Under the pieces are notes generated by a model, which saw only the letters and a list, made by a program, of their open reading frames with translations, was not told where the DNA came from and made no database searches. A program made the position numbers and the translations under genes. 5,031 nt of DNA from Bacillota bacterium. Lineage in GTDB: Bacteria; Bacillota_B; Desulfitobacteriia; Desulfitobacteriales; Desulfitobacteriaceae. The stretch lies in NCBI GenBank assembly GCA_021779415.1, contig JAJYAS010000321.1:1-5031 (forward strand), written 5' to 3'. Of this stretch, positions 1-5,031 are shown piece after piece (the first letter of the stretch is position 1; every line of letters begins with the position of its first letter).

Positions 1-107
1 CACTGATCATTGGCTGATGGAATTTCCACCGAATTAAGATAAACTCGTGTATCAAATCTAAAGATACCAACCTCTTTTTTTTCAAATCTAGCCCAATAAC
101 AACTCAA
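1..107 (-). CDS. Hypothetical protein, N-terminal part only (runs off the left edge)
   Basis: A minus-strand reading frame is open from 107 to the window edge, giving 35 residues that begin MSCYWARFEKKEVGIFRFD and continue without a stop. The start is a TTG at 107-105. It is chosen because an excellent ribosome binding site, GGAGGAG (113-119 on the minus strand), lies five bases upstream. The overlapping ATG within that signal is in a different frame and meets a stop at once. The leader between the hairpin site and this start is only about 45 bases and shows no promoter, so the gene probably depends on read-through or on a promoter farther right. I do not recognise the family. It occupies the same position relative to the hairpin site as the other minus-strand cassette genes. 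Confidence 0.6.
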   Translation of the reverse strand, partial: MSCYWARFEKKEVGIFRFDTRVYLNSVEIPSANDQ

Positions 108-112
108 AGCAT

Positions 113-119
113 CTCCTCC
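113..119 (-). promoter_or_regulatory. Ribosome binding site GGAGGAG of the left-edge gene
   Basis: GGAGGAG on the minus strand lies five bases before the TTG at 107. It is the main evidence that the left-edge frame is a real gene and that a TTG, not an ATG, is its start. Confidence 0.6.
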
Positions 120-152
120 ACTCTCTACAAAAATAAGTCCTGATAGCGCAAT

Positions 153-235
153 TTCCGATAACGTCCCGCGTATTCCCGAAGTCTGGTTACTACGTGCATA
201 TTCTCTCAGATTTTGGGAATACGCTGTTATCGGAA
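153..235. repeat. attC-like hairpin site 1
   Basis: Outer arms TTCCGATAAC (153-162) and GTTATCGGAA (226-235) are perfect complements. Inside them an unpaired spacer GTCCC (163-167) faces a single T (225). The main stem pairs 168-185 with 207-224, with two G·T pairs, and closes on a 21-base loop at 186-206 containing GCATATTCTC. The stem and loop are nearly identical to site 7. There is no T-run after either arm, so it is not an ordinary terminator. Confidence 0.8.
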
Positions 236-333
236 GTGTTCCCGTCTCTCTCAACCCAAGACTAAATCCTTTCATTATGCATAATAATAATACTATCATA
301 ACAATTGTTCCAATTCATGAAGGGTGGTACAAT

Positions 334-504
334 ATGGATATAGATAGTAAAGACATCGAAAGGGATGGTCCTATGGCTTTAGCTAAAGAACCGAAAAGTA
401 ATCTTCAACAAGACACAGCTAATGAGCATAACCAAAAAATCACAAAGGCTATTAAGGAAGTCACTTCTAAACACTCAAAACTTCTCAAGAAATTGGCTGA
501 GTAA
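334..504 (+). CDS. Putative antitoxin partner of Doc/Fic toxin
   Basis: This 56-residue, charged, lysine-rich protein lies two bases upstream of a Doc-family toxin gene. That is the place of the antitoxin in phd/doc-type operons, where the antitoxin binds and blocks the toxin and often represses its own promoter. The C-terminal half (about residues 25-56, NLQQDTANEHNQKITKAIKE onward) looks helical and could cover the toxin. I see no clear N-terminal DNA-binding domain of the Phd/YefM kind, so the assignment rests on position and size. The frame is open back to an ATG at 277, but no ribosome binding site precedes that codon. The ATG at 334 has GAAGGGTGG just upstream (319-327), so I use it. 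Unlike most genes here it runs on the plus strand, against the array. Toxin-antitoxin cassettes in integrons commonly bring their own expression signals, but I could not identify a convincing promoter. Confidence 0.6.
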   Translation: MDIDSKDIERDGPMALAKEPKSNLQQDTANEHNQKITKAIKEVTSKHSKLLKKLAE

Positions 505-506
505 TT

Positions 507-920
507 ATGAAAGATATCGAACTATTATGTATTGACGATATTCTTATTATTCACAAAGAAGCCATTGAAATGTTCGGCGGAAGCTTAGAATATTATCAGA
601 ATACAGTAACAAGGGTTAAAAGTATAATTGACCAACAATACCCTCACTTCGATTACGATAAATATCCAACGCCTTTTAAGAAAGCCTCCATGCTTTGGTA
701 TTTTCTTACCAAGAACCACTGTTTCGTTGATGGAAATAAAAGAGTTGGATTTTATGCAGCGACTGTCCTTCTAAAAATAAACGGCTATTCTGATCAAATC
801 GATGACGATGAAGCATATGAAAAAGCTATTGAAATAACGTGTTCGCACTTAACCGGCGATGACTTAGACCAATATGTGAATGATCTTTCATCATGGCTTG
901 AAAAAAGATTTACTGATTAA
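507..920 (+). CDS. doc: Death-on-curing (Doc) family toxin, Fic fold
   Basis: The 137-residue product has the signature of Doc toxins at residues 71-79, HCFVDGNKR, matching HxFx(D/N)(A/G)NKR. Histidine 71 is the catalytic residue of the family. The asparagine-lysine-arginine end binds nucleotide phosphates. The length fits the family. The best-studied member, P1 Doc, phosphorylates elongation factor Tu and halts translation; I infer the same chemistry from the motif. The N-terminal part has the helices usual for these proteins, with FGGSLEYYQNTV near 23-34 resembling the early conserved segment. The gene starts two bases after the stop of the small upstream gene, indicating translational coupling, and is followed at once by a terminator. 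The likely role is stabilising the array or giving phage defence. A housekeeping Fic AMP-transferase is less likely given the short length and operon. Confidence 0.88.
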   Translation: MKDIELLCIDDILIIHKEAIEMFGGSLEYYQNTVTRVKSIIDQQYPHFDYDKYPTPFKKASMLWYFLTKNHCFVDGNKRVGFYAATVLLKINGYSDQIDDDEAYEKAIEITCSHLTGDDLDQYVNDLSSWLEKRFTD

Positions 921-921
921 C

Positions 922-953
922 GCAGATCCTGAGAGATCTGCTTTTGATTTTTC
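922..953 (+). terminator. Rho-independent terminator of the toxin-antitoxin operon
   Basis: GCAGATC (922-928) pairs perfectly with GATCTGC (935-941) across a six-base loop and is followed by TTTTGATTTTT. It begins two bases after the toxin stop codon, so the operon carries its own end signal. Confidence 0.85.
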
Positions 954-984
954 AAGACTCTTTAGATATACATGCAAGGAACAT

Positions 985-1064
985 TTCCGATAACGTTGCT
1001 CGTGTTGCCGACGCGTCCCAACCACATTCATCTTTACTAAGTGTCGGCAACACGGTTATGTAAA
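985..1064. repeat. attC-like hairpin site 2
   Basis: ATAAC (990-994) faces GTTAT (1055-1059). The unpaired spacer GTTGCT is on the left side only. CGTGTTGCCGAC (1001-1012) pairs perfectly with 1043-1054, and the loop of about 30 bases carries CCACATTCATC. The flank on the left (TTCCGATAAC) does not match the flank on the right (GTTATGTAAA). Each flank instead matches the far end of its own cassette. Confidence 0.8.
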
Positions 1065-1136
1065 TTGGAAACTTGAGATAATAACATTCACAAATCTCAT
1101 CTAGACTTTTATTAATAAGTTACTTGTACCAAACGA

Positions 1137-1448
1137 TTATTGGGATAAGACTGTTAATCCTAACCATACGACAACCCCAACATATGGTAATGTTAAAACC
1201 CATGCTAATATTATTTTGCCAAATTTTATAGCTAATGCTGCTCCAATAAAAAATAGGGGAAGAGCGTACATAATGTATCTAAACTTCGGTGTGGATCCCA
1301 AATACCATGAAATTGGTACAGAAAATATCGCTCCTAAAATTATTAACCAACTCTTCTTTGTAATTATTCCTATACAGACAAGAACGATAGCAGTAATAAT
1401 TCCGGGCCATCCGATGAGCATTATTGCTAATCCTGAAAGGATTGCCAT
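1137..1448 (-). CDS. Small four-helix integral membrane protein of unknown function
   Basis: The 103-residue product is almost entirely hydrophobic. I see four likely membrane helices at about 3-29, 34-51, 58-74 and 79-101. They are separated by short charged turns (KK at 31-32, PKFR at 54-57, KFGK at 75-78), which suggests a bundle in the cytoplasmic membrane. There is no soluble domain and no motif I can name. The ATG at 1448 is well supported: GAGGAGGG lies on the minus strand at 1455-1462, six bases upstream. The stop is about 80 bases from hairpin site 2. The leader back to site 3 is about 130 bases, longer than in the other cassettes, and includes a tiny open frame described under findings. 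Immunity or transport roles are possible but unsupported. Confidence 0.75.
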   Translation of the reverse strand: MAILSGLAIMLIGWPGIITAIVLVCIGIITKKSWLIILGAIFSVPISWYLGSTPKFRYIMYALPLFFIGAALAIKFGKIILAWVLTLPYVGVVVWLGLTVLSQ

Positions 1449-1572
1449 GTTCTTCCCTCCTCATGTCGATTTGAGTTACACTACATGAGAGCTTAAACTA
1501 TTCCTCTAACTAAAAAAGCTTCCAATTCGTCATTGATTTCATCGACCCAAAAATACACTCCGACATTGCCAT

Positions 1573-1655
1573 TTTACATAACGTTCCGAGGGTTTGCGAC
1601 GTCGGGTTACTACATTCATATTCTCTCCGATGTTGCAAAACCTCTGTTAGGTGAA
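1573..1655. repeat. attC-like hairpin site 3
   Basis: ATAAC (1578-1582) faces GTTAG (1646-1650). The spacer GTTCC on the left is opposed by one T (1645). The 18-base stem 1588-1605 pairs with 1627-1644 with two G·T pairs and one mismatch. The loop shares GGTTACTAC and CATATTCTC with sites 1 and 7, though its stem sequence differs. Confidence 0.78.
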
Positions 1656-1664
1656 GTACATGCC

Positions 1665-2279
1665 CTAAGAGAAATACCCAAGCAATTCCCGAATAATACT
1701 CGCAATTATCAGCATCCCAAAAGGTAAACCAAAATGGATTAAACCTTCTTTTGTTAAGATGATTGTTCGACCTTCCTTTTTTAATCTGTCTGGTTCTTTG
1801 ATAAAAAGATATATTATGAAACCAAAAATAAAACTGCATCCCAATGAAACTTCAATTAATTCCGCTATTTCAACGTGGCTGCCCAATCCAATATTGAATA
1901 AACCAATGAGAAATGTAAGAATAAAACCCACAAGGTAATACAACTTTCTTTGCCATAACATAATTAATATATTGGTCTCTTCGCCCCTTTTGGACTTCTG
2001 AATTTGTTCCCATCTGATAGTTGTCGGATTCATATAAAACTTTTCCTTAATTTGATTTATTGAGTGACAGTGATTACATTCCCAAGTGTTAATCCTATCA
2101 GTTACTCCGTTTGTCTGTTCCCACTCCCAGCCACACGTTGGACAGTTTAATTCTGCTAATTCGAATCCGCACTTATTACAAATCAAAAATCTATCTTCTC
2201 CATTCTTGTATCGATAGTAACCAAAATTCTTACAGGTTGGACACACGAATGGCTCCAGATGTGATGATTTTCCCTTCAA
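1665..2279 (-). CDS. Double zinc-ribbon protein with C-terminal membrane segments
   Basis: The 204-residue product has two domains. The N-terminal part carries four CxxC pairs: C13/C16 (CPTC), C34/C37 (CNKC), C46/C49 (CPTC) and C68/C71 (CNHC). This fits two zinc ribbons, each binding one zinc through four cysteines. After a charged linker (about 80-110) come hydrophobic segments at about 114-133, 143-160 and 182-197, so the ribbons are probably anchored at the cytoplasmic membrane. The start is unusual. The frame can be read from a TTG at 2294, but that codon overlaps the ribosome binding site itself. GGAGG at 2288-2292 is eight bases before a TTG at 2279, which I take as the true start. The TAG stop is about 10 bases from hairpin site 3, a very tight cassette fit. 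No promoter is visible in the 36-base leader. I do not recognise a named family. Confidence 0.78.
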   Translation of the reverse strand: MKGKSSHLEPFVCPTCKNFGYYRYKNGEDRFLICNKCGFELAELNCPTCGWEWEQTNGVTDRINTWECNHCHSINQIKEKFYMNPTTIRWEQIQKSKRGEETNILIMLWQRKLYYLVGFILTFLIGLFNIGLGSHVEIAELIEVSLGCSFIFGFIIYLFIKEPDRLKKEGRTIILTKEGLIHFGLPFGMLIIASIIRELLGYFS

Positions 2280-2287
2280 AATAACAT

Positions 2288-2292
2288 CCTCC
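2288..2292 (-). promoter_or_regulatory. Ribosome binding site that fixes a TTG start at 2279
   Basis: GGAGG on the minus strand is eight bases before TTG 2279-2277. An upstream in-frame TTG at 2294 overlaps this signal, so it cannot use it. Confidence 0.6.
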
Positions 2293-2305
2293 AAAATGCA
2301 TGTAT

Positions 2306-2385
2306 TTCACCTAACGTTTAGGTATTCCCGACGCGTCATACTACTTTCATCTTGGCAAAGTGTTGGGAATACCGTGTTATACGGA
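2306..2385. repeat. attC-like hairpin site 4
   Basis: CTAAC (2311-2315) faces GTTAT (2376-2380). The left spacer is GTTTA (2316-2320) and the right spacer GT. The stem 2321-2332 (GGTATTCCCGAC) pairs with 2362-2373 with one G·T pair. The loop contains CTACTTTCATCTT. The two outer flanks do not match each other beyond TAAC/GTTA. Confidence 0.8.
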
Positions 2386-2407
2386 GGACCATGCCCCCAG
2401 ACTCAGA

Positions 2408-2427
2408 GGCCACCATGGACGGTGGCC
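2408..2427. repeat. GC-rich hairpin with loop ATGGAC, downstream of the 2439-2945 gene
   Basis: GGCCACC (2408-2414) pairs perfectly with GGTGGCC (2421-2427) around ATGGAC. It lies 11 bases after the stop of the minus-strand gene. On the plus strand it is followed by CCTTTAATTTT, a weak terminator-like tail; on the minus strand there is no T-run. A hairpin with the same loop but a different stem sits at the other end of the gene. Confidence 0.5.
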
Positions 2428-2438
2428 CCTTTAATTTT

Positions 2439-2945
2439 CTACAGAGCATGCCTAGTCCACCATTCATCCGAATATTCATCCACTGAAACCATAATATCTA
2501 AATTATTTCTATTAAATGTGTCTAGATACTGATGTCCTTTATGTCCTTTATGTCCTAATATTTCACTATCATCTATAATGTTAAACCCTGATATCAAAGA
2601 AGAAAACTCTTTCCATTTACTCTTCGGTAATACCCAGTGAAACACATTGTCCCCTTCGACATTCTTTAAATATTCATCCTTTTCACTCACGAATCCATAA
2701 AGTTTGATCCCTTGATAAGCCTTTATGAATTCTAACTTATCAAACCTTATTTCTCTTGATTTACCATTGGCTAAGTCAGCAAACAAACTTTCAAGTAGCT
2801 TAATGGCCTTCCATTCTCCAGAAAACATAATCATTGTTTCCCCATATCCCCATTTAGGGAAAAACCCAAGATTAATTATTGAATCCATAAAATACTCCCC
2901 ACAAGCTTTTAATACTATTATTTCTTCCCTATCTATCCGCGCCAT
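2439..2945 (-). CDS. Hypothetical protein, possible small cytosolic domain
   Basis: The 168-residue product has no signal peptide and no membrane helix. Its mixed hydrophobic and charged composition suggests a soluble globular protein. Visible traits are an aromatic stretch FFPKWGYGETMIMFSGEW (about 28-45), a short tandem GHKGHKGH near 130-137 made by a repeated 9-base DNA unit, and an acidic, tryptophan-rich tail ending DEWWTRHAL. I cannot assign a family. The start is uncertain. The ATG at 2945 sits at the edge of a GC-rich hairpin loop with only AAAGG about 11 bases upstream. The ATG at 2888 (residue 20) has GGGGAG at 2895-2900, six bases away, and would give 149 residues. Cassette-borne orphans of this size are typical of integrons, and small immunity-like proteins are one possibility, but nothing here proves a role. 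Confidence 0.7.
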   Translation of the reverse strand: MARIDREEIIVLKACGEYFMDSIINLGFFPKWGYGETMIMFSGEWKAIKLLESLFADLANGKSREIRFDKLEFIKAYQGIKLYGFVSEKDEYLKNVEGDNVFHWVLPKSKWKEFSSLISGFNIIDDSEILGHKGHKGHQYLDTFNRNNLDIMVSVDEYSDEWWTRHAL

Positions 2946-2956
2946 GGACGGCGCGG
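2937..2956. repeat. GC-rich hairpin with loop ATGGAC at the start of the 2439-2945 gene
   Basis: CCGCGCC (2937-2943) pairs perfectly with GGCGCGG (2950-2956) around ATGGAC. On the minus strand it covers the ATG at 2945. It could restrain translation from that codon, or mark that the gene really starts at 2888. Confidence 0.5.
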
Positions 2957-2970
2957 CCTTTGCAAGGTCT

Positions 2971-3050
2971 TTCGTATAACGTCCAGGGATTCCCGACGCG
3001 TCCCAACCACATTCATCATTGCTAAGTGTCGGGAATCCCGTGTTATGTGA
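2971..3050. repeat. attC-like hairpin site 5
   Basis: TATAAC (2975-2980) faces GTTAT (3042-3046). The left spacer is GTCCA and the right GT. GGGATTCCCGAC (2986-2997) pairs perfectly with 3028-3039. The loop closely resembles that of site 2 (CCCAACCACATTCATC, then TAAGT). Confidence 0.8.
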
Positions 3051-3084
3051 TGCCGCGGCAAAGATTCACTTTCAAGCTCAGATA

Positions 3085-3507
3085 CTATTCTAAGTCACTA
3101 AAATAACTTGCCACATCATAATTAGCAATTAAACGTGCAAGACCGATTGGGGTTTGTCCATAATTATTTTGACAATATGGGTTTGCACCAAAGCTCCTGA
3201 GGATTTCAATGACACTACCATCAGAACGATAATTAAAAACCGCTCCGGATAAAGGAGTATTTCCATTGCTATCAAGTGCATCTACTTCCGCACCGGATTC
3301 TAATAACAAGGACACTAGTTTACTGTTCTGAGCTTGCGCAGCAAAGTGTAATGGCGTCCACCCCTTTTTGTCCCTATGATTGACGTCAGCACCTGATAAA
3401 ATCAATTCTTGTGCTTTTAATAAGTTTCCGTCATTGGCAGCATAGTGTAAATCTATGCGCCCAAGCTTATCTTTCGGTTGAGCCTTACTCGTTAAGTTCT
3501 GTTGCAT
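3085..3507 (-). CDS. Ankyrin-repeat protein
   Basis: The 140-residue product is built of about four ankyrin repeats at roughly 15-46, 48-79, 81-113 and 115-138. The second is textbook: GWTPLHFAAQAQNSKLVSLL, then ESGAEVDALD, with the TPLHxAA helix start and the GA(D/E)V turn. The first has DLHYAANDGNLLKAQELILS and GADVN. The third is interrupted by a short insertion (FNYRSDGS). Ankyrin repeats bind other proteins and carry no catalysis of their own. There is no signal peptide, so it acts in the cytosol, perhaps as an inhibitor or immunity-type partner; that is inference. The ATG at 3507 is supported by AGGAG nine bases upstream, with GAGG closer. The 73-base leader contains the palindrome TTAATATTAA but no convincing promoter. 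The stop is about 35 bases from hairpin site 5. Confidence 0.88.
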   Translation of the reverse strand: MQQNLTSKAQPKDKLGRIDLHYAANDGNLLKAQELILSGADVNHRDKKGWTPLHFAAQAQNSKLVSLLLESGAEVDALDSNGNTPLSGAVFNYRSDGSVIEILRSFGANPYCQNNYGQTPIGLARLIANYDVASYFSDLE

Positions 3508-3570
3508 ACATCCTCACTCCTAAACCCTTTAAGTTAATATTAATCAACAAATATTTTTCGTCCCAGCGGT

Positions 3571-3649
3571 GTCACATAACGTTCAGGTATTCACGAAGCG
3601 TCTCAACCACATGCATATCTCTAGTTTCGAGAATACCGTGTTATGTGAC
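3571..3649. repeat. attC-like hairpin site 6
   Basis: Outer arms GTCACATAAC (3571-3580) and GTTATGTGAC (3640-3649) are perfect complements. The left spacer is GTTCA, the right GT. The stem 3586-3597 pairs with 3626-3637 with one A/A mismatch. The loop carries CCACATGCATATCTC, mixing features of the two loop types. Confidence 0.8.
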
Positions 3650-3782
3650 GTTGTACGACCCGTCAATCTCACATACGCGGGCCCCTCTTACCCCAAAGTA
3701 AACCCTAAATCCCTTATATACCCCTCTGTGCCTCTCTCCTTTGATTTTATGAGCGTATATAACCCCTCATTTTCCACACACC

Positions 3783-3828
3783 ATGTCAAGTAATATTACT
3801 TGACATAAGCTTTTAGTTATGCTATATT
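3783..3828 (+). promoter_or_regulatory. Near-consensus promoter overlapped by a 24-bp perfect palindrome (candidate operator)
   Basis: TTGACA (3800-3805), a 17-base spacer and TATATT (3823-3828), with TG of an extended -10 at 3820-3821, form a strong vegetative sigma-factor promoter on the plus strand. ATGTCAAGTAAT followed by ATTACTTGACAT (3783-3806) is a perfect palindrome that covers the -35 box. A dimeric repressor bound there would block the polymerase. It would drive the small gene at 3951 through a leader of about 115 bases. This is the best promoter in the window. Confidence 0.75.
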
Positions 3829-3838
3829 CGCTTCAAGC

Positions 3839-3940
3839 CTCCTTTCATAATTTATACGGCTCAGTGCTACACCACACTGAGTCAATTAATTTAGAATCAT
3901 TTCAAATAATATAGTGGGGAAATTCCCCACCTTTAAGGAG
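3839..3940 (+). promoter_or_regulatory. Structured leader of the 44-residue gene
   Basis: The leader has a hairpin (3858-3866 with 3875-3883, core CTCAGTG/CACTGAG), then the palindrome GTGGGGAA-A-TTCCCCAC (3914-3930), which ends five bases before the ribosome binding site AAGGAG (3935-3940). Near its 5' end CTCCTT (3839-3844) is complementary to AAGGAG. The elements could mask the ribosome binding site or bind a protein; both readings are inference. Confidence 0.4.
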
Positions 3941-4057
3941 AGATTAAACCATGGATGACAAGTTACGCAAATCATTATTCGCTCAAATTAGACGACTTGA
4001 ACGAGAAAAAGAAATCTTAAAACTAAAAATTCAAATCCTAAGTGGGGAAATTCCCCA
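3913..4057. repeat. Pair of 17-bp direct repeats AGTGGGGAAATTCCCCA
   Basis: The identical 17 bases occur at 3913-3929 in the leader and at 4041-4057 inside the 44-residue gene, where they encode SGEIPQ. Each contains a palindrome TGGGGAA-A-TTCCCCA. A diverged copy lies at 4794-4817, where TGGGGAA and TTCCCCA are separated by ten bases. Copies in both non-coding and coding DNA suggest a protein-binding site. Confidence 0.65.
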
Positions 4058-4085
4058 ATTGCAGGATTCATGCAATAATCAATAA
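3951..4085 (+). CDS. 44-residue coiled-coil protein
   Basis: ATG at 3951 opens a short frame ending at TAA 4083-4085. AAGGAG (3935-3940) is ten bases upstream and a strong promoter lies further up, so translation is credible despite the length. The product starts MDDKLRKSLFAQIRRLEREK. From about 5 to 31 it shows a heptad-like pattern of L/I residues with charged flanks (IRRLEREKEILKLKIQIL), the look of a small leucine-zipper dimer. The tail (32-44) is polar with one cysteine. It has no helix-turn-helix, so if it binds DNA it would do so by the basic patch or through a partner. Small regulators of plasmid copy number have this size, which fits the origin-like elements nearby, but I do not recognise it. 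Confidence 0.55.
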   Translation: MDDKLRKSLFAQIRRLEREKEILKLKIQILSGEIPQLQDSCNNQ

Positions 4086-4243
4086 ACTCGCCGAAGCGAA
4101 GCGGAGGGCCTTGATGTGGAGATGTCCAATATGCTAAGCTAATTCAGCGAAGCGAACCACAAGCCCCGCAGGGCGCAGGGGGTCGTTTCGCAGTTCGCTC
4201 ATGGCATATTGGACAGAGGCTCCGTGTCAAGGCTTTATTGATT
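4077..4243. repeat. Long interrupted inverted repeat around the end of the 44-residue gene
   Basis: Three nested perfect arms pair in order: AATCAATAAA (4077-4086) with TTTATTGATT (4234-4243), CCTTGA (4109-4114) with TCAAGG (4227-4232), and TGTCCAATATGC (4123-4134) with GCATATTGGACA (4204-4215). A 22-base GC-rich bulge lies on the left side only. The inner region of about 70 bases is rich in GCGAAGCG-like words. The outer arm contains the stop codon of the small gene and is followed by TTTTGCTCTT, so it may act as terminator. It may also be a structured RNA or a single-strand origin. Confidence 0.6.
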
Positions 4244-4561
4244 TTGCTCTTAGTGCGACCTGAAATTATTCATTCAAATTCTCCCGGCAAGTATGTCGCG
4301 CTCAGACATTCTTGCTCGTTCTGTTCGTTCCTTTTTGCGAAGCAATATTACGCTAAGCCCCCGTTCTCGCGAAGCGCAAATCGTCCTTTCATAAATCAGG
4401 AGTGCCTTAGTAACTTAATTAAGACCTTTTCTTTTGCGTGATTCGACCGCTGGCATTTATTTAAAATCACTCGTTTCAAAAGACCGGGTGCGCTCGCAAG
4501 CGCACAACTTCTCTTATACTCTAGACAAATTTTTGATATTATTCGACAAATAATTCTCATT
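4244..4561. other. Non-coding stretch with GCGAAGC words; no credible gene
   Basis: Open frames here lack ribosome binding sites and protein-like composition. GCGAAGC occurs at 4337-4343 and 4369-4375, besides 4096-4102 and 4147-4153 in the preceding structure. A perfect hairpin GTGCGCT/AGCGCAC (4488-4494 with 4499-4505) has the loop CGCA and no T-run. I see nothing else. Confidence 0.5.
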
Positions 4562-4619
4562 GGGGGGTGATCTCCCCCCACCTAGCGAAGTATGGTGGGG
4601 GGGGATCTCTTCTTATCTT
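4562..4619. other. C/G-tract hairpins with TAGCGA loop beside TTCTTATCTT: candidate rolling-circle origin element
   Basis: CCCCCC (4574-4579) can pair with GGGGGG on its left (4562-4567). Alternatively CCCCCCACC (4574-4582) can pair with GGTGGGGGG on its right (4594-4602); the two folds exclude each other. The loop of the second begins TAGCGA (4583-4588), which resembles the CS-6 motif in the loop of single-strand origins of rolling-circle plasmids. Six bases further, TTCTTATCTT (4610-4619) matches the core of the nick region of pC194/pUB110-type double-strand origins, though the following GATA is replaced by ATTC. No Rep gene is in the window. The resemblance is from memory and needs an alignment. 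Confidence 0.35.
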
Positions 4620-4663
4620 ATTCCCTAATTTTTCCATAATTTTATTTCCATATTCTTCCTAAT

Positions 4664-4695
4664 AGTTGCATGGGTATAGTATTACCCATGCAACT
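4664..4695. repeat. 13-bp perfect hairpin AGTTGCATGGGTA
   Basis: AGTTGCATGGGTA (4664-4676) pairs perfectly with 4683-4695 across TAGTAT. Neither side has a T-run, so it is more likely a protein-binding palindrome or part of an origin than a terminator. Confidence 0.6.
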
Positions 4696-4697
4696 TC

Positions 4698-4788
4698 TGT
4701 AACATGTAACATTTACCCCTTAAACCCGCTTCTACCAAGGCTTTGAACCTGTTACACCCATTTATTTCCTTTTGTAACATTTGTAACT
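4698..4788. repeat. TGTAACA repeat cluster (iteron-like)
   Basis: TGTAACA occurs at 4698-4704, 4705-4711 and 4773-4779, with TGTAACT at 4782-4788 and the inverted form TGTTACA at 4750-4756. The two end pairs are close direct repeats and the inverted copy sits between. Such clusters are typical of binding sites for a replication initiator or a repressor. No gene follows before hairpin site 7. Confidence 0.5.
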
Positions 4789-4839
4789 GAAAATGGGGAA
4801 ATTCCTTCAATTCCCCAACGACCCCATATTTCATCCCAA

Positions 4840-4924
4840 TGTCACATAACGTCCCGCGTATTCCCGAAATCTGGTTACTACTTTCATATTCTCTCAGATT
4901 TTGGGAATACGCTGTTATGCGTAG
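4840..4924. repeat. attC-like hairpin site 7
   Basis: CATAAC (4845-4850) faces GTTATG (4914-4919). The left spacer GTCCC is opposed by one T (4913). The 18-base stem 4856-4873 pairs with 4895-4912. From 4851 to 4918 it differs from site 1 at only about three positions, yet its flanks differ, which shows that the core and the flanks have separate histories. Confidence 0.8.
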
Positions 4925-4946
4925 TTACAGCCCCCAAAGAAATACT

Positions 4947-5031
4947 TTAATCTATAGAAATGGGTTCATATCCATTTGAAGCGTAGATTACAAATCTATC
5001 TATGATATCCCATGTATCTGTTAGCACTTTT
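4947..5031 (-). CDS. Hypothetical protein, C-terminal end only (runs off the right edge)
   Basis: The minus-strand frame entering from the right edge is open for 27 residues, from KVLTDTWDIIDRFVIYASNG to the end EPISID, then TAA at 4949-4947. Composition is protein-like, with an amphipathic run TWDIIDRFVIYA. Its stop lies about 23 bases from hairpin site 7, the same tight arrangement as the other minus-strand cassette genes, which supports it being real. With so little sequence no family can be named. Confidence 0.5.
   Translation of the reverse strand, partial: KVLTDTWDIIDRFVIYASNGYEPISID

Follow-up and report, generated by a model that had tools for sequence, protein, structure and literature searches.

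The analyzed stretch of DNA (hereafter, the window: positions 1 to 5,031, i.e., the whole 5,031 nucleotides, of contig JAJYAS010000321.1, assembly GCA_021779415.1) comes from a bacterium of the family Desulfitobacteriaceae (Bacillota) and contains a six-cassette array, which is part of an integron-type array. Taken as a whole, with folding of a circular cassette, a recombinase encoded next to related arrays and joining at an attI-like region, this explanation of the sequence is very probably correct. Seven attC-like sites with six intervals between them were found in the window using one pattern derived from those sites, and no matches to this pattern were found in 200 shuffled sequences. The sites were scored with R1, a sequence-and-structure model of the site based on 30 sites, including six from the window. 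The R1 scores given below are not independent evidence, because six of the seven window sites trained R1 or resemble its alignment. The exchange points of the cassettes were set at TAA^C by analogy with G^TT in classical integrons. The window contains no recombinase gene. The sites, cassettes and arms are as follows:

157..231, + strand: attC-like site 1 (R1, 82.4 bits; pattern match)
989..1060, + strand: attC-like site 2 (R1, 76.8 bits)
1577..1651, + strand: attC-like site 3 (R1, 77.4 bits)
2310..2381, + strand: attC-like site 4 (R1, 76.3 bits)
2975..3047, + strand: attC-like site 5 (R1, 85.6 bits)
3575..3645, + strand: attC-like site 6 (R1, 73.3 bits)
4845..4919, + strand: attC-like site 7 (R1, 83 bits)
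162..993, − strand: cassette 1 (site 1 and genes); region 159-996 is 91.6% identical to Desulfosporosinus lacus, locus L017, 6188-7011
226..242, + strand: end arm of cassette 1, pairs with 978-994
978..994, + strand: other end arm of cassette 1, pairs with 226-242
994..1581, − strand: cassette 2 (site 2 and the open reading frame (ORF) 1137-1448, −); arms 1055-1068 and 1569-1582
1582..2314, − strand: cassette 3 (site 3 and ORF 1665-2294, −); arms 1646-1663 and 2298-2315
2315..2979, − strand: cassette 4 (site 4 and ORF 2439-2945, −); arms 2376-2394 and 2962-2980
2980..3579, − strand: cassette 5 (site 5 and ORF 3085-3507, −); arms 3042-3058 and 3564-3580
3580..4849, − strand: cassette 6 (site 6 and 1.2 kb without a convincing gene in the ORF list); arms 3640-3653 and 4837-4850

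A preliminary description of the window had claimed that the two ends of each cassette are complementary to each other and not to their neighbours, and all six of the flank pairs that it listed were found at these coordinates. Cassette 1 showed 16 Watson–Crick pairs and one G·T pair over 17 positions, cassette 3 showed 17 and one over 18, cassette 4 showed 16 and two over 19, cassette 5 showed 14 and two over 17 and cassette 6 showed 13 and one over 14; in cassette 2, 13 of 14 positions were paired and one was T·T. The arm sequence varies between the cassettes, as was also proposed; the site is common to them. When positions 5–17 except position 11 were counted, 10.67 of 12 positions were paired in the window alone, compared with 5.68 ± 1.07 after shuffling, and none of 2000 shuffles scored as high. 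The wider flank shuffle called for in that description covered 61 loci including the window, with 196 intervals in total (those duplicated between overlapping loci were taken once, and 31 more without GTT/AAC ends were set aside), and also showed an excess of pairing within intervals, namely 8.98 of 12 positions compared with 4.85 ± 0.12, again with 0 of 2000 shuffles as high. The value was 8.93 for the 190 intervals outside the window. In an earlier set of 115 of 136 intervals (the other 21, without GTT/AAC ends, were left out), 8.23 of 12 positions (5–16) formed Watson–Crick pairs, compared with 4.49 ± 0.13 and a maximum of 4.93 among 2000 shuffles.

The arms were not selected for in the search, because the locus-finding pattern sits inside the site and leaves the arms free. 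The two flanks of one site paired at 4.84 (n = 255), no better than shuffled flanks, which bears out the claim about neighbours; therefore, the arms are a property of the cassette rather than of the site in its array position. The paired arm reaches about 17 bp, and 151 of the 196 intervals paired well (at least 11 of 16 positions), while 45 paired poorly (fewer than 11 of 16). Folding of each site with seven choices of flank showed that the far flank of its own cassette gave the most stable structure in all six window cassettes, with a mean energy of −24.7 kcal/mol for the own far end, −16.7 kcal/mol for the linear array and −15.6 kcal/mol for all other flanks. Thus, by pairing and folding, the ends of a cassette rebuild the site in the circle, as in integrons. 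The idea that they rebuild one fully paired hairpin needs refinement, since the pairing is imperfect, with a wobble at position 11 in 168 of 196 intervals. As a classical control, one class 1 array of three cassettes was used. Its two testable cassettes showed 12/12 and 10/12 paired positions from GTT, i.e., pairing past the 7-base core; therefore, long arms are not unique to the system described here, and it is the arm length and the fixed non-pair that differ.

Every window interval has a non-pair at position 11, five of them G·T and one T·T. Among the 151 well-paired intervals, there were 146 G·T, three T·T, one G·G, one C·T and no Watson–Crick pairs at this position, and positions 12–14 were paired in 92–97% of them. 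In the full set of 196, G·T (168) was followed by T·T (9), A-T (7), G·G (5), G·A (3), C·T (3) and A·C (1). In the class 1 control, position 11 was paired in both cassettes, two cassettes being few. The G·T at position 11 reads as A·C on the opposite strand. The A·C seen at position 11 of some loci might be taken for a compensated mismatch; this was rejected, since these sites lie on the minus strand and carry G·T on the strand of the model.

Of 303 sites, 238 fold more stably on the strand matching R1 than on the complementary one (8 are equal), and at the remaining arm positions G·T was found 63 times and A·C 29 times. This asymmetry in folding and in G·T is as expected if the R1 strand is the one folded and used. 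In addition, the longest ORF lies opposite to the R1 strand and ends toward its own site in 122 of the 151 well-paired intervals; the reverse was found in 21, and 8 had no ORF of 60 codons. According to PMC3053210, IntI binds the bottom strand of attC, and the orientation of the ORFs fits bottom-strand use. An RNA element would also fold better on one strand, as would be the case if the hairpins were intergenic terminators or regulators working at the RNA level and the complementary ends reflected RNA looping. This is very improbable given that the better-folding strand is the one opposed to most of the longest ORFs, that whole units are common to loci with unrelated neighbours and that the ends of first cassettes lie at conserved attI borders (see below).

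In the consensus, the inner stem of the site consists of 14 pairs without a bulge, with variation in individual sites, and the spacers, judged by eye, are unequal (about 5 and 1–2 nt). A palindrome with AAC/GTT is present, and GTTA is mostly followed by T (a T-A pair at position 5 in 74 of 115 intervals), as in GTTATGT, which does not fit the classical attC form, a palindrome framed by RYYYAAC and GTTRRRY, at its GTTRRRY end. The loop ACYACNTNCAT was found in 7/7 window sites; its conservation outside the window is not independent, because the loop belonged to the scan pattern. A scan of genomes with the site pattern gave 67 stretches, mostly from Desulfosporosinus. Five of these (two from Nostoc and one each from Acinetobacter, Ignavibacteria and goat Bacilli) were judged by eye to be chance matches and were kept outside the R1 search. 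The R1 model gave 220 hits in 78 sources, including the window, of which 214 were kept in the site list (four truncated or partial hits and the two weakest were dropped). In a second set 100 of 105 hits were kept (five were dropped, the weakest but one group), and in a third set 70 of 76 (five weak hits and one of 36 bits were dropped). Further stretches from the pattern scan belonged to Gracilibacter, Peptococcaceae, Pelotomaculum, Geosporobacter, Lutispora, Acididesulfobacillus and others. The site of locus L037 (Tepidanaerobacteraceae) reached 40.6 bits with R1, though it was left out of the site alignment, and may be real. Loci L124, L126, L132 and L143 carry larger sites, mostly of 110–155 nt, with ends and cassette logic as in the window sites. 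Among 299 sampled genomes of Bacillota, the phylum of Acididesulfobacillus, R1 sites were found in 22. The window DNA had no match among the plasmids or phages searched, and the scan of viral contigs gave no contig with the site pattern.

In relatives within Bacillota, a tyrosine recombinase gene pointing toward the array was found. A match to this recombinase was present in 32 of 93 fetched loci having sites, and merging of the loci by hand gave 22 distinct places with a site no more than 10 kb downstream of the gene. In 19 of these, the first such site had the opposite model strand. This was the case for 10/10 genes with a detected N-terminal domain and 9/12 core-only genes or fragments; the count spans all loci with both features and has more exceptions than a count on 14 hand-picked loci. 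A recombinase match with E 1e-60 or better was present in 24 of the 299 genomes and co-occurred with sites in 8, compared with 1.8 expected (P 8e-5). According to their coordinates, the gene and the site were at most 10 kb apart on one contig in seven of these eight genomes, and in the remaining one (G292) they were on separate contigs. In two of the eight (G013 and G142), the recombinase had no N-terminal domain.

Judged by its sequence, the array recombinase is not IntI. Alignment to VchIntIA left VchIntIA residues 175–239 unmatched, i.e., the additional domain is absent. With the integron integrase model TIGR02249 (cut-off 265 bits), the L068 protein reached 224 bits, and those of L070 and L144 were also below the cut-off, which was passed by IntI1, IntI2 and a Raoultella IntI. 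In the tree, the recombinase and IntI form separate groups. The cut-off of the XerA model NF040815 (220 bits) was passed by L068 (240 bits), L070 (230 bits) and L144 (221.5 bits), and the match to XerA, an archaeal tyrosine recombinase (PDB 5hxy, 4a8e), in sequence model and fold spans the two core domains from about residue 100, leaving the N-terminal part of the array recombinase outside. No link of XerA to cassette arrays was found in the covered part of PMC8371274. Archaeal Xer was ranked over IntI by VIA-align, whereas Foldseek placed IntI first; due to this disagreement, the fold cannot decide between them.

In the N-terminal 80 residues, weak Pfam hits to HARP (PF07443; E up to 1) were found in 8 of 11 members (best E 0.00043). 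With whole proteins, HARP hits at the same limit were found in 15 of 29 (best E 0.0019), and one member reached 19.3 bits, below the gathering cut-off of 25. A fold search with this domain gave weak matches to XPB, T4 UvsW and the HARP domain of SMARCAL1, none with E under 0.001, and eIF1-like folds scored as well as XPB. These weak fold matches and Pfam hits suggest a faint resemblance of the N-terminal domain to HARP/XPB/UvsW DNA-recognition domains, which belong to helicases, whereas here the domain is fused to a recombinase. Recombinases without the N-terminal domain near some sites form a separate group in the tree and were not counted as the recombinase of the arrays, although some may have this role. 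Some of them lie beside IS91-like genes (L071, L077), and the gene next to the domain-less recombinase in L071, L077 and L081 resembles an IS91-type transposase gene. The L083 locus (Acididesulfobacillus chromosome, 692.5-712 kb) contains an array with an intact recombinase gene at one end and a recombinase fragment at the other; the middle four of its 9 sites are inverted.

An integron-type array is predicted to have the far end of its first cassette directly behind the recombinase gene. In four of five arrays, the complement of the near flank of the first site was found there, at a GTTA, with 14 (L083), 13 (L084), 15 (L085) and 11 (L087) of 18 positions matching. The L087 match is only one above the runner-up and is trusted only because the alignment of L084 and L087 backs the junction. 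These loci belong to two species of Desulfosporosinus, and their sequences share 92% identity across the gene end and onward to CCCATA/GTTA but are unrelated beyond it; L070 (Lutispora) and L079 (a metagenome-assembled genome of Clostridiaceae), compared by eye, are likewise alike up to GTTA and then different. A junction in L091 was rejected as a miss, since the best match (12 of 18) has no GTT start and lies within the frame of a broken gene. A first-cassette junction of at least 13/16 within 320 bp of the gene end was found in 16 of 26 recombinase loci, compared with 52 of 520 windows placed at random in these loci, some of these windows being true cassettes. For 15 of these 16 loci, position 11 of the best junction is A·C, and in L144 it is the second match that has it; this A·C is the same position-11 mark, read on this strand. 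By eye, several attI-like regions contain a pair of CGANNNNNNTCG-type dyads, of which the second lies just ahead of the junction. Thus, as in integrons, an attI-like region was found by comparison to lie beside the recombinase gene.

It could be assumed that these are ordinary attC sites of clusters of attC sites lacking integron-integrases (CALIN), and that a classical IntI encoded at another place in the genome, or in an earlier host, serves them in trans. A few CALIN are reported for Firmicutes in PMC9024848, and the class 1 array also pairs past its 7-base core, as described above. However, none of 23 array-bearing genomes contained a protein above the integron-integrase cut-off (nor did 14 control genomes, so that this search had no positive control), and position 11 was paired in both class 1 cassettes. 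Together with the separate grouping of the recombinase beside the arrays and the position of the attI-like junctions after its gene, this makes service by a classical IntI unlikely.

The integron-type reading is also in agreement with the distribution of the cassettes. The likeness of cassette 1 with its site to the D. lacus locus ends at TAACGT on both sides; after the D. lacus copy come a stretch judged by eye to be attI-like and a recombinase remnant, while the window copy lies inside the array. In the region of cassette 2, positions 1136-1585 share 76% identity with positions 682-1119 of the D. fructosivorans locus L047. Comparison of 219 interval bodies gave 26 pairs alike over at least 60% of their length, three of which were excluded as moves (same contig or near-identical genomes). 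No similar neighbour was present on either side in 21 of the remaining 23 pairs, which are partly non-independent, as some cassettes recur in several. For instance, a D. lacus and D. nitroreducens pair was 97.4% identical over 794 bases with no similar neighbour, and a pair from Gracilibacter and another genome was 97.3% identical over 662 bases, with 53 bases of the left neighbour alike. By comparison only, the cassettes thus move as exact units, as integron cassettes do.

The 14–19 bp inverted ends of each interval could also be terminal inverted repeats of a transposon-like element, with the hairpins as dispersed repeats at its ends. The end sequences, however, vary by cassette around a common site, and no transposase or recombinase family was found in the window proteins tested, except for a sub-threshold zinc ribbon named after one. 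The units also stop at the site boundary beside the recombinase, and comparison revealed attI junctions and exchange of exact cassette units, so that a transposon-like origin has hardly any probability left.

A Chryseobacterium plasmid (L144) contains the recombinase and, oriented as expected, flank pairs at 10300/11387, 11506/12103 and 12395/13240. In total, 17 flank pairs at 13/16 were found in L144, compared with 6–11 per 19 kb in shuffled DNA; chance yields pairs at this threshold, and the L144 array is therefore only a lead. A unit of about 170 bp with nearly touching arms and no gene is present there in four copies (10128, 12223, 14604 and 17673) and looks as if it were a copied empty cassette.

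Compared with classical integrons (IntI, attI and attC; class 1 and sedentary chromosomal ones), the arrays likewise have mostly one-gene cassettes with one hairpin site, genes mostly ending at the site, a recombinase gene and attI at one end, complementary ends in each cassette, a GTT core and one better-folding strand. They differ in that the recombinase has no additional domain, is placed apart from IntI and runs toward the array, in arms whose pairing reaches about 17 bp and whose position 11 is a constant non-pair, and in unequal spacers (by eye) with no bulge in the consensus inner stem. The Firmicutes CALIN and the Limnochorda pilosa integron (PMC9024848) are cassette-like clusters from the same phylum. 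That report names a single complete integron in the phylum, whereas here a recombinase, an attI-like region and an array were found together in several Bacillota.

The other features of the window concern the content of the cassettes:

277..504, + strand: ORF of 75 aa (cassette 1); no Pfam or NCBIfam match
507..920, + strand: Fic/Doc family gene (cassette 1); PF02661, E 1.4e-14; TIGR01550 above cut-off
1137..1448, − strand: ORF of 103 aa (cassette 2); no family in Pfam/NCBIfam search
1665..2294, − strand: ORF of 209 aa with a zinc-ribbon-like N-terminus (cassette 3); PF12760, E 4.1e-05, under its cut-off
2439..2945, − strand: ORF of 168 aa (cassette 4); no family in Pfam/NCBIfam search
3085..3507, − strand: ankyrin-repeat protein of 140 aa (cassette 5); PF13637, E 1.9e-22
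4666..4711, + strand: ssNA-helicase RNA motif RF03070 (cassette 6, without a convincing gene); 48.4 bits, gathering score 41.5

The Doc-like toxin gene is cassette cargo and is opposite in direction to most other window genes; from its position, the 75 aa ORF can be guessed to be its partner. Toxin–antitoxin cassettes are known to steady integron arrays. Cassette 6 contains short dyads GGGGAAATTCCCC at 3913-3929, 4041-4057 and, in part, 4792-4808, as well as GCGAAGCG-rich stretches in the same region (3913-4808). A hairpin module of the type GCCCCNGATTCAGAGGCCGCCAYGGACGGCGGCCCCTT was found just inside the cassette end at 2407-2436 and 2942-2961. Such modules were present at 43 of 296 site ends (window and fetched loci), with similar hairpins across the site in 28, and may be terminators or traces of cassette formation. 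Three Rfam microRNA matches on hairpins, all far under their gathering scores, were rejected as chance.

The suggestion that the intervals behave as integron cassettes was supported by the shuffle controls, the attI-like junctions, the exact cassette 1 unit elsewhere and homologous cassettes with unrelated neighbours. It was right in kind and needs refinement with respect to the recombinase beside related arrays, which is not a classical IntI. On the basis of sequence comparisons, we infer that recombination is carried out by this system, and we read it as a new form of integron, integron-like in its working and not classical by the IntI test. Each cassette would consist of one interval and one attC-like site. 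In the circular cassette, the ends would adjoin and complete a long hairpin on one strand, in which the inner stem is joined by an outer arm of about 17 bp that carries G·T at its position 11. The recombinase encoded beside the array would recognise this folded strand and join the cassette to attI just after its own gene; once in the array, the arms would be parted, each adjoining the arms of neighbours. The enzyme would be a relative of IntI without the additional domain and with a HARP/XPB/UvsW-like N-terminal domain, which may read the outer arm or its wobble and so replace the extrahelical-base contact of IntI.

The chances are about even that these arrays represent a second integron lineage, in which a fork-recognition-like domain of the recombinase replaces the additional domain, and which is widespread in Bacillota and reaches at least one Bacteroidota plasmid. 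The long arms, complete only in the free circle, would then act as a ratchet, making circles good and integrated sites poor substrates, and the wobble at position 11, tolerated in the helix of one strand only, would mark the strand used. No description of this system was recognised in searches of open-licence papers, preprints being outside this coverage. One complete integron and a few CALIN were named in Firmicutes by IntegronFinder 2.0 (PMC9024848), the additional domain is among the defining characters of IntI according to a paper on archaeal integrons (PMC9668308), and an earlier survey, as given in PMC2426708, chose proteins by this domain and noted Firmicutes as absent. If the arrays are integrons, this rarity is partly definitional, because searches keyed to the IntI additional domain would miss them, and platforms for gene shuffling may be commoner in Bacillota than surveys suggest. 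The system also offers a natural test of the additional domain and the extrahelical bases, because its recombinase has no such domain and its consensus site seemingly has no such bases. The 17 bp arms with one fixed wobble may provide a handle on strand choice and the direction of cassette flow.

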